64,000 nt of DNA, from contig NZ_CP104208.1 in NCBI RefSeq assembly GCF_026230175.1, forward strand, positions 1,922,001 to 1,986,000, in the 5' to 3' direction. Below, one piece after another: positions 598 to 50,833 of this stretch. How positions within the stretch are numbered: position 1 is the first letter of the stretch; the number at the start of each line of letters is the position of its first letter. The position numbers and the translations under genes are program-made. The notes beneath the pieces are model-generated. The model was given only the letters and a program-made list of their open reading frames with translations. It made no database searches and was not told where the DNA came from. The stretch comes from Desulfovibrio mangrovi (GTDB taxonomy: Bacteria > Desulfobacterota > Desulfovibrionia > Desulfovibrionales > Desulfovibrionaceae).

Positions 598-1653
598 GTG
601 CGCCGTATTCTAGCCATTATCTGGTGCCTCTGGGCCTTGAGCCCGGGGGCACCCTGTCAGGCGCAGCCCGCTGCTGCCCCTGCATTCAAACACTCCGTGG
701 CAGTAGCCTTTGGCGGGGAGCTGGGCCTGCCTGTGGCAGTGCGTGTGACTGAAGCCATGGCCCGCATAGGAGCCATGCAGAAAGCCGCCCAGTGGCTTGA
801 CCGGGATAAAAGTGTGCAGTTGGCCCGAATGGGCTACGAAAAAACCGACCCGCAAGTACTGCGAGATGCCCAGCCCCTTGCATGGATGCTCTACCGTGCA
901 GTCATCACCGAGCAAGAAAAGATAGGCAAGGCGCCTGACCTTGGCGTCCGGTCAACGGCTACAGTAGTCCCCCCCAAGAACTTTCCCGTGCGCCTCAAGG
1001 ATGCCCTGCTGCAGTCACTGCAGCTCCTGCTGCATCGCAAGGCTCTCGATCATGAACAGCGTATTCTGCGCCGCTTCGTACAACTGACTGCCTCCATGCC
1101 TGACATGGCGGCACCGGCAGATGCGCTGAACAAGCAGTTTGAACCCCAGTTCACCGACATCGCCAACGAACTTCATGCCCTCACCCTGCTTCGCGAACAG
1201 CTGGCAAGCCTGCAGAACGGACTGTGGACGCAACCGGAGCCGATTTCCCTTGCCATGAAGAGGGCTATTGAACTGGCACCGGACAACCCTCTGCTCTGGT
1301 ACGCCAAGGGCACGGCGGATTATCAGCTCCAGCGTACACAAGATGCCCTGAATGCGCTCGACAGGTGCCTTGACCTCATGCCCAATTTTGCACAGGCCCT
1401 GCATGACAGAGGCACAATATATGTGCGCCTTCACCTCACCACACTGGCTCTTGCCGATTATGATGCCGCCATCCGTCTTCAGCCCCGCAACGCCGATTTC
1501 TTCCGCTCCCGCGGCTCGGCGCACCTCGTCAACGAAGACTTTTCTCCCATGTGCCGCGACTTCTACACGGCCTGCGCTCTCGGGGTCTGCGAGAATTACC
1601 ACTGGGCCACAAGCCGGGGACACTGCACATCCGCACCGCCTGCGGGACAGTAA
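598..1653 (+). CDS. secreted TPR-repeat protein
   Basis: A 351-residue exported protein starting at GTG directly after the upstream TAA, with no independent ribosome site, which suggests coupling. Residues 1-22 form a signal peptide (two Arg, hydrophobic core, C-Q-A-Q cleavage region). Residues about 225-320 hold two or three tetratricopeptide repeats (A-P-D-N-P-L-L-W-Y-A-K-G and A-L-H-D-R-G-T-I-Y styles), so it probably scaffolds a periplasmic or envelope protein complex. A Cys-rich tail (C-R-D-F-Y-T-A-C, C-E-N-Y, G-H-C) could form disulfides. The partner is probably the upstream lipoprotein; the specific function is unknown. Confidence 0.7.
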   Translation: MRRILAIIWCLWALSPGAPCQAQPAAAPAFKHSVAVAFGGELGLPVAVRVTEAMARIGAMQKAAQWLDRDKSVQLARMGYEKTDPQVLRDAQPLAWMLYRAVITEQEKIGKAPDLGVRSTATVVPPKNFPVRLKDALLQSLQLLLHRKALDHEQRILRRFVQLTASMPDMAAPADALNKQFEPQFTDIANELHALTLLREQLASLQNGLWTQPEPISLAMKRAIELAPDNPLLWYAKGTADYQLQRTQDALNALDRCLDLMPNFAQALHDRGTIYVRLHLTTLALADYDAAIRLQPRNADFFRSRGSAHLVNEDFSPMCRDFYTACALGVCENYHWATSRGHCTSAPPAGQ

Positions 1654-1687: not shown

Positions 1688-1882
1688 AAAAAAGAGATCG
1701 GCCGCGTCTGGGGGTAGTAGACGCGGCCGACGCTGCAAGGGAGGAGGATGATGAATGGTGCGGCTTCGCTGCTTAACCGCACGGGAGACCGGGTGCTGCA
1801 AACCGGTCCATCATTCCCTGTTGTCATCGAAAACGTTCGACGACAAACATCCATATGGCCAGATTACACTACGCTAAGGAGC
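1688..1882 (-). ncRNA. putative structured small RNA with intrinsic terminator
   Basis: No convincing gene occupies 1654-2016. Read on the minus strand, the stretch forms four successive hairpins: 1846-1821 (11-bp stem with one G-U), 1808-1787, 1782-1758, and a 13-bp GC-rich stem at 1731-1697 followed by a T6 run at 1693-1688, which is a classical intrinsic terminator. The linker between hairpins three and four (1757-1732) is unpaired and carries CCTCCTCCC, complementary to Shine-Dalgarno sequences. A TATAAT lies at 1893-1888; no clear -35 is seen. It does not match 6S, tmRNA, RNase P or SRP RNA motifs. The 5' end is estimated from the -10 box. Confidence 0.5.
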
Positions 1883-1887
1883 GGGCT

Positions 1888-1893
1888 ATTATA
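1888..1893 (-). promoter_or_regulatory. -10 box for the putative small RNA
   Basis: A perfect TATAAT on the minus strand about 40 bases upstream of the first hairpin of the putative small RNA. The expected -35 position (about 1911-1916) reads CGCGGG, a poor match, so another sigma factor or an activator may be needed, or the site may be fortuitous. Confidence 0.35.
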
Positions 1894-2016: not shown

Positions 2017-2913
2017 TCATCTCCAGACAAAGGAATCGGCGCTCCCCGCACAATGACACAGGCCCTCTGCCGGACGTTGCTGCAGTTGCCTGCGCAGGCA
2101 CATGGCCGCTTCATCCTGATACACAACCCACAACGATCCGTATCGTTCACAGATATATGTGTGTCCTCCCCGGGGCGCTTCTCTCCGGGCCTGCGGGGGG
2201 CCCATCAATTCATGCACCTGTTCCGGCGTCATGCCCCGTGCAATGGTGACACGTCCGGCCTTGCTCATCTGCAGATTCCTGCGGAGAACAGCATCGCGCT
2301 TCCTCTTCAGCTCATCCAGATCCTGCAGAGCACGTTCCCGATCCCGGTCGTCGAAAGGCCGGGGAGACGGGGGAGGTGCCGGCTTTGCCTGCTGACCGTC
2401 AGAGAGAGGCGGCATGGGAGCATATCCGTCAGACAGAGGAGCCATTTCAGCAACCCGTTGCCGAGCGAAATTCACAGCCCTGCCCGAGGCGTTAAGCTCA
2501 TCCCGCAGGGCGGGAGTCTTTGCTATCTGCTCAAGCCGTTCCAGCACATCCTGCGTATTGAAAGAAACCTTGCTTCTGCAGTGGACCGACATATGCTGCC
2601 CATCCAGGCGCACTTCTTCGCCCAGACGTTCAACCTGCAGCACTGCGGCCGTAAAACTGTATACCTCATCCCGCTCAAGAGAAAAATTGGCAATTTCAGT
2701 ACGGGACTCCATGTACACGCCAGCCCGCTCCAGCGCCTTTCGCTCGGCCTCCGCATAACACATGCGAACGGCCTCGGAACGGGAGTCGTTGTCTCCCATG
2801 TGGTAGACATGCTCCACGTCAAAGGTCTGCCATGCGCAAACGGGGGAACCGGCTCCAGATGCCAGCAGCAGCACTCCGCTGGTCATCACTGCCACAAACA
2901 ACCGCCTGATCAT
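2017..2913 (-). CDS. secreted protein with FlgT-N-like and SmpA/OmlA-like regions
   Basis: A 298-residue exported protein; residues 1-27 form a signal peptide. Residues about 30-125 (D-S-R-S-E-A-V-R-M-C-Y-A-E-A-E-R-K-A-L followed by a C-R-S-K-V strand) resemble the N-terminal domain of the flagellar protein FlgT. A Pro-rich linker and a charged helix (about 165-210) follow. Residues about 218-270 (I-A-R-G-M-T-P-E-Q-V-H-E-L-M-G-P-P and the following strands) look like the SmpA/OmlA (BamE-like) fold. Its ATG overlaps the upstream MBL hydrolase stop by four bases (ATGA), so the two are co-translated. The assignment rests on motif resemblance; the role is unknown. Confidence 0.6.
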   Translation of the reverse strand: MIRRLFVAVMTSGVLLLASGAGSPVCAWQTFDVEHVYHMGDNDSRSEAVRMCYAEAERKALERAGVYMESRTEIANFSLERDEVYSFTAAVLQVERLGEEVRLDGQHMSVHCRSKVSFNTQDVLERLEQIAKTPALRDELNASGRAVNFARQRVAEMAPLSDGYAPMPPLSDGQQAKPAPPPSPRPFDDRDRERALQDLDELKRKRDAVLRRNLQMSKAGRVTIARGMTPEQVHELMGPPQARREAPRGGHTYICERYGSLWVVYQDEAAMCLRRQLQQRPAEGLCHCAGSADSFVWR

Positions 2914-3974: not shown

Positions 3975-5174
3975 ATGTTTGATACCCTGACCTTGGAAAA
4001 ATATGCGGACGTCATTATCTGGGGCCTGCAAAAGGGCCGCAGCAAGGCTTTTGCCAAAAGCGATTTCATTCTGGTCAATTACGACCATGAAGCCCTGCCG
4101 CTTGCCGAAGAGGTCTGCGCCCAGTTGCATGATCGCGGCCTTATTCCCATCCACAGGGCCCTGCCGACACCGCGAATGGAATACGACCGCTACACCAAGG
4201 CCAACAACAAACGCCTCTCCACCCTCACTCCGGGAGACAAGGATCTCTACAACCACCTGAACGGCTCCATCAGTCTGATAGCGCCTTCTTCGCTCACCCA
4301 TCTGGCGAGCATTGATCCGGAACTGCTCAACCTCGTACAGAAATCACGCCACCCCCTGCGCCAGATCATGAATACACGGGAACAGATGGGTTCCTTCGGC
4401 TGGACGCTCTGCATGTACCCTACGCAGGCACTGGCCGCTCAGGCGGGCCTTTCCCTTGAAGAATATGCCCGGCAGATAAAACTCGCCTGCTATCTGGATG
4501 ACGGTACGCCGACTCACAAATGGCGTCTGCTGGCCAAACAGATTGAAGCCCTGCGCGAAGAACTGACCAGTCTCGGCAACTGCACCCTGCGCGTGGAATC
4601 GGATTCCGTGGACCTGCTGCTCAAGGTGGGCGAACGCCGCATCTGGGCAGGCCTCACGGGACGCAACCTGCCCAGCTTTGAACTATATGTCTCACCGGAC
4701 TACAGAACAGTGGAAGGAGTATACACCTCCAACCTCCCGTCGTTCCGTTCCGGCAACATCATCAGCGATGTACGGCTGGAGTTCAAACAAGGACGCGTTA
4801 CCGCCATGCAGGCCGCGCACAGCGAGGCATTTGTGGTCAAGCAACTGAATCTGGACGAGGGCGCAGCCCGTGTCGGTGAATTCGCACTGGTGGACAAGCG
4901 CTTTTCACGCATCTCCGCCTTCATGGCCAACACCCTGTACGACGAAAACCACGGCGGCACGTGGGGGTCCATGCATATTGCCCTCGGCAATGCCTACAAC
5001 AACACCCTTGCCGGAGACGTCACGGCGTATGATGAAGAACTCCGTCGTTCGCTCGGCTTCAACTCGTCCATCCTGCACTGGGACCTCGTCAATACGGAGC
5101 GCAAGCGGGTAACCGCCATCCTGAAGGACGGAACCCGCAAGACCATATACGAAGACGGGGAATTCACACTCTAG
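3975..5174 (+). CDS. aminopeptidase, peptidase family M29
   Basis: A 399-residue cytosolic metallo-aminopeptidase of the thermophilic aminopeptidase (AmpS/PepS, M29) family, which releases N-terminal residues from peptides with two divalent metals. Visible signatures are the C-terminal H-S-E-A-F-type region, G-E-F-A-L-V-D (about 297-303), an E-N-H-G-G-T metal-ligand segment (about 324) and H-I-A-L-G-N-A-Y (about 333); length is usual for the family. AGGAGGCAAT before the ATG supports the start. It stands alone downstream of a divergent unit; the small gene at 5228 follows 53 bases later. Confidence 0.88.
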   Translation: MFDTLTLEKYADVIIWGLQKGRSKAFAKSDFILVNYDHEALPLAEEVCAQLHDRGLIPIHRALPTPRMEYDRYTKANNKRLSTLTPGDKDLYNHLNGSISLIAPSSLTHLASIDPELLNLVQKSRHPLRQIMNTREQMGSFGWTLCMYPTQALAAQAGLSLEEYARQIKLACYLDDGTPTHKWRLLAKQIEALREELTSLGNCTLRVESDSVDLLLKVGERRIWAGLTGRNLPSFELYVSPDYRTVEGVYTSNLPSFRSGNIISDVRLEFKQGRVTAMQAAHSEAFVVKQLNLDEGAARVGEFALVDKRFSRISAFMANTLYDENHGGTWGSMHIALGNAYNNTLAGDVTAYDEELRRSLGFNSSILHWDLVNTERKRVTAILKDGTRKTIYEDGEFTL

Positions 5175-8417: not shown

Positions 8418-8617
8418 GATTAGGGTAACCCCGAAGCGCCGTGTGACTCACCAATGCAGGACCATGTGGTCCTTAGGTGGGCTCCTTGGACGCTCCTTCA
8501 GGCTTCCCGAATGGTTCGGGCTTGCACACCGGTGCGCCGGTCAGGCTCCCAATTGTATGATTGTGAGGCCAGCATCGGCTTATCATCACGCACACCCCAG
8601 GGGGTTGTTACCGTATC
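8418..8617 (-). ncRNA. ssrS: 6S RNA
   Basis: A minus-strand RNA of about 200 bases that aligns by eye with enterobacterial 6S RNA: the sequence around 8525-8495 has the same series as the E. coli RNA (a short C-C-C-G-A-A/T-T-C-G-G-G hairpin, then GAAGCCTGAAGGAGCGTC, then CCACCTAAGGACC with its own hairpin). The ends pair: GGTAAC-AA-CCCC near the 5' end matches GGGGTTACC near the 3' end, extended by GAT/ATC. 6S RNA binds sigma70 RNA polymerase in stationary phase. The position next to zapA matches the ygfE(zapA)-ssrS linkage of enterobacteria. Ends are inferred from the closing helix. Confidence 0.8.
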
Positions 8618-49519: not shown

Positions 49520-50833
49520 ATGAGTCAGCCTTTCAAGGATGCCATCGGTATCTGCAAAACCATCATGCGTAACGGGTATGACGCCTATGTGGTGAACACC
49601 CTGCTGCAGAAGGAACTGCACAACGAAGACCGCGAAGCGGAAATTGATATCGCCTGCGAACCCACCGTTGAAGAACTCACCCGTCTCTTCCCCGGTCTGC
49701 AGTCCTCCCCCATTCAGGGCGCACTGGGCCTGCTGAAGGAAGGCGACGTCACCTTCCACTTCTATCCGGCCGACACCGAAGACGCATCACACCCCGAGGC
49801 GACCCTGGCACGCATCACCCCGCGTCTGCTCAAGCGTCTGGAAGAATCCGGCACGCTGCCCGCGCACCTTGCCTGCCCGTACATTCCCCGCACCTACGAA
49901 ACCTACGACGGCTTCGTAAGCTTCAACGTGGGCGAAATCCGCATGGAAGGCATTCCGGATGAAACCCTGCGTCGCAACTACCTGCTGGGCATCCGTGCGC
50001 TGCGCTTTGCCGCCAACTTCGACCTGCCGCTGGAAAAGAATACGTGGATGGCCATTCTGAAGGGCGCTTCCCGCATTCTGGATTACGTGCCCGTGACCGA
50101 GATCATGGACGAATGGCGCAAGGTAGAAGCGGAAAACATGTGGAAGTTCGTGCAGCTTCTGTTCGATTCCATGATCCTGCACGGCCTGCTGCCGGAAATC
50201 GCCGCCCTTTCCCGCGTCATCCAGATCAAGAACGAAGAAGGCGAAGAGGAAACCGTGCTTGAGCACACCATCGGCGTGATGCACAAGTATCCGGAAGAGT
50301 TCACCTACGACTGGCTGGGCACCTTTGCCGTGCTGTTCCATGACGTGGGCAAGCTCTACACCGCAGAACACGACGGCGAACGCTGGACCTTCTACCAGCA
50401 TCACCGCGTGGGCGCGAAGGTAACCAGAAAGCTGCTTTCCCGCCTTTCCGTTCCTCAGCAGGATATCGACCTCATCTGCCACCTCGTACGGCAGCATCTG
50501 CGTTTCCACTCCATGCTGACGGACAAGGGCATCCGCCGTTTCAAGGCGCTGGACGAATACCCCCGCCTGATCGAACTGGCCCGCGCAGACCTGAAGGCCC
50601 GCGGCGTTGCGCTTACCTCCTTCAACCACAATATGAAGTATCTGGAACGCGCAGACACCCCCGAGCAAATGACCGAACCCTTCCTGAACGGTAACGACAT
50701 CATGGAAGCCACCGGCCTGAAGCCCGGCCCGCACGTGGGTATCATTCGCGATGACCTTCTCAAGGCCCAGATCGCCGGTCAGGTGAACTCGGTTGAGGAA
50801 GCCGTGGCGTATGTGAAGGCGTATAAGTTGTAG
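49520..50833 (+). CDS. degenerate tRNA nucleotidyltransferase-like protein with HD domain
   Basis: A 437-residue protein with the layout of class II CCA-adding/poly(A) polymerases. The N-terminal half lacks the nucleotidyltransferase glycines: where G-G-x-x-R-D would stand it reads Y-V-V-N-T-L-L-Q-K-E (about 23-32), and the catalytic D-x-D is E-I-D. The linker G-I-R-A-L-R-F-A-A-N-F (about 152-162) is well kept. The HD phosphohydrolase domain is intact: H-T-I-G-V-M and F-H-D-V-G-K (about 274-279). So the nucleotidyltransferase is probably inactive and phosphohydrolase activity retained; the substrate is unknown. GGAGG precedes the ATG. Confidence 0.78.
   Translation: MSQPFKDAIGICKTIMRNGYDAYVVNTLLQKELHNEDREAEIDIACEPTVEELTRLFPGLQSSPIQGALGLLKEGDVTFHFYPADTEDASHPEATLARITPRLLKRLEESGTLPAHLACPYIPRTYETYDGFVSFNVGEIRMEGIPDETLRRNYLLGIRALRFAANFDLPLEKNTWMAILKGASRILDYVPVTEIMDEWRKVEAENMWKFVQLLFDSMILHGLLPEIAALSRVIQIKNEEGEEETVLEHTIGVMHKYPEEFTYDWLGTFAVLFHDVGKLYTAEHDGERWTFYQHHRVGAKVTRKLLSRLSVPQQDIDLICHLVRQHLRFHSMLTDKGIRRFKALDEYPRLIELARADLKARGVALTSFNHNMKYLERADTPEQMTEPFLNGNDIMEATGLKPGPHVGIIRDDLLKAQIAGQVNSVEEAVAYVKAYKL

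Follow-up and report, generated by a model that had tools for sequence, protein, structure and literature searches.

Does the stretch between positions 1688 and 1893 of the minus strand encode a small RNA of its own, and if so, what could its C-rich linker do? The stretch lies in the window analysed here, which is the whole 64,000-nucleotide piece of the Desulfovibrio mangrovi genome (contig NZ_CP104208.1). A preliminary description had proposed a new regulatory RNA with an exposed anti-Shine-Dalgarno linker that acts on many mRNAs. We followed up this proposal by examining the anatomy of the locus, its conservation and covariation in related genomes, the accessibility of the linker, its candidate targets, and its resemblance to known RNAs.

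Anatomy and neighbourhood of the locus

The elements named in the preliminary description, i.e., a TATAAT, four hairpins of which the last is a terminator with a 13-bp stem and T6, and the linker, are all present on the minus strand. The TATAAT is a −10 box (1893-1888) that would belong to the sRNA promoter and reads [A/G]AATATAAT[A/G]GC in the 10 genus members, without a recognisable −35 element. Since a pattern scan of 1500-2200 lists no minus-strand −35/−10 pair, the −10 box is the only recognisable promoter element, and its position would place the transcription start at about 1881. The 5′ arm (1881-1848) ends in an invariant GGATG (1852-1848), which can pair with the CATCC of the linker, and it is followed by hairpin 1 (1846-1821; 11 bp as read from the sequence), hairpin 2 (1808-1787; 6 bp, with an invariant GCAGCA in its loop), and hairpin 3 (1782-1758; 8 bp, with GCAGCGA in its loop in the genus). 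Next comes the C-rich linker TCATCCTCCTCCCTTGCAGC (1751-1732), 20 bases that are invariant in the genus and include, between hairpin 3 and the terminator, the anti-Shine-Dalgarno core CCTCCTCCC (1747-1739). The intrinsic terminator (1731-1688) is composed of a 13-bp stem (1731-1719/1709-1697, with one G-U pair at its base), a C-rich loop, and the T6 run (1693-1688); the pattern scan omits it, its 9-base loop exceeding the scan's loop limit of 3-8. Taken over 1680-1900 of the minus strand, the fold energy is −78.7 kcal/mol, compared with −61.1 ± 4.6 kcal/mol for 200 dinucleotide shuffles (z = −3.9). The core CCTCCTCCC alone is not rare, with 37 occurrences genome-wide.

A GCAGC-type motif occurs three times in the RNA, at 1799-1795 and 1772-1768 in hairpin loops and at 1736-1732 at the linker end, all on the minus strand. 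In the form GC[A/G]GC it is kept at these three places (the loops of hairpins 2 and 3 and the linker end) in 17/17 members from two genera, and this recurrence suggests that the motif may be a second contact site.

The convergent neighbour of the sRNA is a gene for a TPR-repeat protein (598-1653, plus strand; Pfam TPR). It adjoins the sRNA in all 10 genus members and in 6/7 members of the second genus (16/17 together; the seventh locus is short), and the gap between them ranges from that in G000, where the RNA ends at 1688 and the frame at 1653, to several hundred bases in G008, G009, G007, and G001. At E ≤ 1e-10, 55 of 119 family genomes encode relatives of the TPR protein, and the distant matches among them may be other TPR proteins. 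Upstream of the sRNA and on its own strand is a gene at 2017-2913 (minus strand), behind which a terminator-like site (1986-1957, minus strand; one site found, 0.7 expected in shuffles) separates this gene from the sRNA. An MBL-fold gene is found upstream of the sRNA in 9/10 genus members, and Pfam assigns the window neighbours to TPR and MBL-fold, with two proteins lacking a match over the cut-off. Flanked by protein genes on both sides, and with a terminator-like site following the upstream one, the sRNA is unlikely to be a piece of a 3′ UTR, and it is no leader of a following same-strand gene. Elsewhere in the window, 6S RNA is encoded at 8424-8606 of the minus strand (Rfam RF00013, 87.1 bits).

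Conservation and covariation in the genus

A BLASTN search of 59 genomes, including the window's own, returned one clear copy in each of the 10 genus genomes (E 1.6e-8 or better), and any match in the remaining 49 genomes was short and had an E value of 1.6e-4 or worse. Both the TATAAT and the linker TCATCCTCCTCCCTTGCAGC are present in 10/10 genus members, the linker being identical in all of them. Anchored, ungapped pairwise identity outlines the unit. In front of the −10 box it is 0.29-0.34 at a distance of 100 to 31 bases and 0.49 over the 30 bases adjoining the box, and it reaches 0.91 at the box itself. Further on, the 5′ arm has 0.64, hairpin 1 has 0.84, the spacer that separates it from hairpin 2 has 0.58, and the linker has 1.00; the T-run has 0.57, and in the outer flank identity falls to 0.33 and 0.26. 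With identity confined between the −10 box and the terminator, the data are most simply read as a gene that has these limits.

The stems are conserved as structures. With the RNAalifold consensus of the same 10 sequences as the structure scored, 97.8% of the stem cells are paired and two-sided changes occur in 16 of 37 pairs, which was equalled by 0/500 shuffles; the covariation score is 0.369, compared with 0.201 ± 0.017 for shuffled alignments, and sliding the structure along the alignment comes nowhere near it. Further pair types, taken alone, are not in excess (25 vs. 27.1 in shuffles). In hairpin 1, all cells of its 9 pairs are paired (100%) and 2 pairs have two-sided changes, and such changes are found in 5/7 pairs of hairpin 2 (91.2% paired), in 4/8 pairs of hairpin 3 (98.7% paired), and in 5/13 pairs of the terminator stem (99.2% paired). 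The sole long invariant stretch outside these covarying stems is the linker, the complement of AAGGGAGGAGGAUGA.

Overall, covariation and limits indicate that this is almost certainly a real, well-delimited, and conserved small RNA gene. The preliminary description had staked its case on the conservation of the stems and the linker in relatives, and both are kept, with covariation, in the 10/10 genus members and in the second genus as well. Its view of a discrete structured RNA gene, ~190-195 bases long and equipped with a −10 box and a terminator, is borne out by the conservation and the limits, with expression as a prediction.

The sRNA in a second genus

We built a covariance model (R1) from the 10 genus loci and ran it against 297 genomes of the order (cut-off E ≤ 0.05). 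Matches were obtained in 27 genomes, comprising the 10 (by construction), six genomes of a second genus, g43 (E 9e-12 or better), and 11 weak ones. A second model (R2), built from the 16 loci and run against 288 family genomes, gave 24 matches, and the 17 at 109.9 bits or more were the same 16 (by construction) and G302 (115.7 bits). Seven g43 genomes carry the sRNA, and there was no match in another g43 genome with a fragmented assembly (G231).

When the two genera are taken together, in an alignment fitted to the structure, two-sided changes occur in 24/37 pairs. Hairpin 1 has them in 8/9 pairs and is 95.9% paired over both genera, the terminator stem is 99.5% paired, and hairpin 3 is weaker in the second genus (85.8% paired over both genera). 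The linker in g43 is TCATCCTCCCCCTTGCAGC, one base fewer, in 7/7 members; accordingly, the motif CCUCCUCCC of the 10/10 genus members is there CCUCCCCC, also one base fewer, in the 7 members. By eye, the 5′ half of six g43 loci (L044-L049) differs from that of the genus and contains a GCGTGG...CCACGC inverted repeat. Also read by eye, TTGCCG, 16 bases, and then a TAGGGT-like hexamer stand upstream in most of the six members, and these two elements are a plausible promoter, judging by their sequence.

The 11 weak R1 genomes (E 1.5e-5 or worse) were set aside as chance matches, as none has the linker together with the hairpins. The same applies to the 7 weak R2 genomes (at most 32.6 bits), in which linker and hairpins do not occur together at the loci examined, all but L070 and L071. 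For L052, which is the same place as L072, this judgement comes from the alignments. At one locus in G122 (L068), CATCCTCC-CCCTTG does occur, but it follows a different strong terminator. Under strict filters, and with 7 candidates per genome scored, a search of 395 genomes sampled from the phylum returned the window's own copy only, and 19 loci chosen by TPR synteny outside the two genera scored at best 13.4 bits with the unfiltered model. At 16 TPR loci outside the two genera, the 700 bases that follow the TPR frame contain no CATCCTCC, and 2 second-genus loci show the RNA. The sRNA was thus not found beyond the two genera in searches of which the large ones scored 7-10 candidates per genome under strict filters.

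Accessibility of the linker

The linker lies outside every covarying helix. However, the 5′ arm can cover it. In the single-sequence fold of the window's member, the linker is on average 0.56 unpaired, and the minimum-energy fold pairs part of it. In the RNAalifold consensus, the CAUCC of the linker and three more motif bases pair with the 5′ arm, mostly in invariant columns, and the GGATG/CATCC helix cannot show covariation because both strands are invariant in 10/10 members.

Over the 10 members, the linker is 0.09-0.65 unpaired in the full-length fold. In seven of them (G004, G008, G002, G009, G005, G007, and G001), it is 0.09-0.29 unpaired, rising to 0.76-0.95 without the first 40 bases, and in G000, G006, and G003 the arm matters little (0.55-0.65 with the arm and 0.56-0.65 without). 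Shuffled 5′ arms cover the linker as well or better in 4-14 of 60 cases in six members, in 44-52 of 60 in G000, G006, and G003, and in 0 of 60 in G004. Since shuffled arms often cover the linker equally, capping by the 5′ arm is not significant overall, and the folding models present it as a possible feature. The linker had been described as exposed, which holds in that it stands outside the covarying stems, but not throughout, as the 5′ arm can cover it to a degree that depends on the member.

Candidate targets

The pattern AGGAGGAT-N1-6-ATG occurs at 11-29 sites per genome, compared with 1-9 for the reversed pattern. Among the matches listed there are 150 such sites, of which we took 140; left aside were three matches at the RNA's own locus, one duplicate, three further sites that were close to contig ends or unselected, and the three listed for G008. 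As G006 is absent, eight genomes are represented. Among the matches listed, an open reading frame of at least 45 aa follows the motif at 117 of the 140 sites. Again among the matches listed, the start of Lon recurs in 8/8 genomes, the window's own included, and that of a Pal/OmpA-like lipoprotein in 7/8, not the window's own; a periplasmic binding protein, HemB, and an unnamed cluster recur in 5/8 each, none of them in the window's own genome; a protein without a Pfam match recurs in 4/8; and Hsp20 (a fourth sequence being doubtful) and the nickel hydrogenase large subunit recur in 3/8 each. Pfam was run on one sequence from each of the six named sets and the unnamed 4-genome set, and the duplexes of the linker with these seven sets range from −12.7 to −22.7 kcal/mol. 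A strong Shine-Dalgarno sequence is conserved for its own sake, and for this reason the recurring target-like starts prove nothing and are leads.

Over 45 crudely called open reading frames of the window, the excess of linker pairing at start regions over intragenic regions was 2.1 kcal/mol. The reversed linker gave 2.9, and three shuffled linkers gave 2.1, 1.5, and 1.4. The best duplex is with the frame at 3975 (plus strand; −20.9 kcal/mol). The frames at 49520 (plus strand) and 38864 (minus strand) start behind AGGAGGATG, and their duplexes (−20.7 and −19.5 kcal/mol) are the second and third best of the 45; the former recurs in 4/8 genomes among the matches listed and has no Pfam match. A search for the 17-base linker complement with up to 2 mismatches found the RNA gene itself in 10/10 genomes and 8 two-mismatch matches in 5 genomes, two of which (G002:C50:38654-38670 and G001:C3:27753-27769) share GCAAGGCAGCAGGATGA. 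There is no conserved extended partner for the linker across the genus genomes in this search, as expected for a short seed. Target prediction with the linker, which the preliminary description had suggested as a check, yields candidate starts such as Lon and others, but the window frames fail to separate the linker from its reversed or shuffled versions.

Proposed role and alternatives

The locus combines features of a functional class: a −10 box and terminator, a conserved structure, and a seed complementary to the Shine-Dalgarno sequence outside the conserved stems, with partial accessibility of that seed. We favour an anti-Shine-Dalgarno role because the sole long invariant stretch outside the covarying stems complements the Shine-Dalgarno region, and we consider it probable that the RNA is a stand-alone, trans-acting, Hfq-free repressor of this kind. 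An RNA of ~190-195 nt (about 1881-1688, minus strand) would have a promoter and a terminator of its own, with hairpins 1-3 and the terminator holding the linker in place and protecting the RNA. The linker UCAUCCUCCUCCCUUGCAGC would base-pair with mRNAs at their Shine-Dalgarno region, most favourably where AGGAGGAU(GA) closely precedes the start codon, and the pairing would block ribosome binding without Hfq, leading to translational repression. Here, we infer transcription, the start site, mRNA pairing, translational repression, and the identity of the targets. As for RNA chaperoning in the genus, Hfq was found in 0/10 genomes (the same search finds it in 5/14 control genomes), while CsrA is present in 10/10. 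On this ground the sRNA would act without Hfq, as NfeR1 does.

The same two counts also fit a different view, in which the RNA works mainly via protein: A-N-GGAUG before hairpin 1 would bind CsrA, the linker and the GCAGC loops would be protein sites or structural, and mRNA pairing would be minor. GGAUG is invariant in 10/10 genus members, and GC[A/G]GC persists in the two loops and at the linker end of every member. When scored with the CsrA SELEX consensus given in PMC7652899, A-N-GGAUG matches 10 of 12 positions in 8/10 members, and only 1-5 of 300 shuffles each reach that score. However, the 8 members with high scores are related in sequence and do not count as independent cases; G000 and G003 match 8/12 at their best sites, a score reached by 47 and 60 of 300 shuffles, respectively, and the site of G003 lies elsewhere; and the consensus score is 6-7/12 in the second genus. 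CsrA sponges of the CsrB/RsmZ type carry many GGA motifs in hairpin loops, whereas the RNAs of the genus have 3-5 GGA triplets each and no CsrB-like array, with one strong site in the 5′ arm (8/10). Altogether, we regard a mainly protein-binding RNA as unlikely.

Pairing and protein binding could also be combined. In a self-capped, Hfq-free anti-Shine-Dalgarno RNA under CsrA control, the 5′ arm, acting as a Shine-Dalgarno-like decoy that carries GGAUG, would cover the linker. Once CsrA has bound at A-N-GGAUG, or the arm has been cleaved off, the linker would be free to silence a regulon that includes Lon. This is improbable in our judgement; if true, the Csr system and base-pairing repression would be linked in an Hfq-less lineage.

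It is very improbable that the RNA is an antisense or 3′-end regulator of the convergent TPR gene (598-1653). That gene is the neighbour in 10/10 members of the genus and 6/7 of the second genus, and a read-through 3′ UTR of its mRNA could overlap the sRNA. Nevertheless, the sRNA and the TPR frame do not overlap in G000, the gap reaches several hundred bases in the four genomes named above, and the invariant part is the linker, with nothing tied to the TPR frame.

We attach hardly any probability to a small protein gene, whether in the plus-strand 67-codon frame at 1748-1951 or in the minus-strand frame from 1854. In 17/17 members, the linker complement does read as a Shine-Dalgarno sequence plus ATG, and the plus-strand frame has a perfect Shine-Dalgarno-like AGGAGG. 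However, the changes follow base-pairing, and neither frame has a Pfam match. The minus-strand frame varies from 18 to 279 codons, is missing its ATG in G004, and was not detected in the second genus. Expression of the plus-strand frame had been named in advance as evidence that would speak against an RNA gene; this case is opposed by the frame's lack of conservation, as its length ranges between 12 and more than 200 aa and indels of one base interrupt it between close relatives. Intrinsic terminators are common, yet a leftover terminator with chance hairpins and no separate RNA is just as hard to credit, given that hairpins 1-3 covary, the invariant linker lies outside the terminator, and the upstream gene has its own terminator-like site (1986-1957).

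The anti-Shine-Dalgarno repressor is accordingly the reading we carry forward. Few sRNAs of sulfate-reducing bacteria have been characterised in the open-licence literature, and the genus is without detectable Hfq; a conserved, probably base-pairing RNA that stands beside the same gene in two genera is a testable entry into RNA control in these bacteria.

Comparison with known RNAs

No Rfam family reaches its threshold over 1688-1893, and this includes 6S, tmRNA, SRP, and RNase P, in agreement with the preliminary description, which had recognised none of their signatures. The C-rich, UCCC-type sRNAs of Gram-positive bacteria (e.g., RsaE) cover the Shine-Dalgarno sequence with a C-rich unpaired seed; the seed of our RNA is alike by description, and there is no Rfam match to them here. 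In Desulfovibrio vulgaris, Dv_sRNA2 is a small RNA of unknown function located downstream of the response-regulator gene DVU0679 (PMC3333781), whereas the constant neighbour here is the TPR gene, and the two RNAs are set apart by neighbourhood alone. The terms “Shine-Dalgarno” and “C-rich” are absent from the main text of a computational survey of ncRNAs (PMC11124144).

The best sub-threshold Rfam matches are CcsR1 (RF02791; 24.2 bits vs. a gathering threshold of 65.3) and ar14 (RF02344; 24.2 vs. 58.8). In the related loci (10 of the 17 members scanned), CcsR1 scores 24.8-26.8 bits in 3/10, and the other 7 give nothing at E ≤ 0.5. Both are alphaproteobacterial RNAs with CCUCCUCCC anti-Shine-Dalgarno motifs (PMC3927594; PMC10746234). 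The CcsR1-4 or cuckoo RNAs of Rhodobacter resemble our RNA in the CCUCCUCCC motif and in the C-rich loop of the last hairpin. The cuckoo RNAs are stress-induced from an RpoH-type promoter, and of the putative promoter here a TATAAT −10 box is recognisable. They differ in that CcsR has two full motifs and our RNA one, and in that the CcsR1 model places each motif in a hairpin loop, whereas here the motif is in the linker and the closing stem of the first motif is deleted in the alignment. Furthermore, CcsR RNAs are co-transcribed with a DUF1127 gene (PMC10253847), unlike our RNA: DUF1127 (PF06568) was not detected in 9/10 genus genomes, and there is none among the window neighbours. A lone DUF1127 protein (L124, G006:C12:400246-400356) is encoded in the tenth genome, on another contig than the sRNA.

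The ar14 RNAs form three hairpins, each with a motif, whereas our RNA has one motif in the linker, and the hairpin around the model's middle motif is unformed. The ar14 member NfeR1 of Sinorhizobium carries ultraconserved CCUCCUCCC seeds and silences mRNAs at the translation start independently of Hfq (PMC10746234). On the evidence of its seed, our RNA probably works like CcsR1 and ar14, yet we do not file it as a member of either. It appears to be a new family of a known kind, the C-rich anti-Shine-Dalgarno RNAs, and apparently an undescribed one, as far as Rfam and the open-licence literature show. Its presence in two genera of Desulfovibrionaceae suggests that the CCUCCUCCC solution, familiar from alphaproteobacteria, has also arisen in, or spread to, other bacteria.
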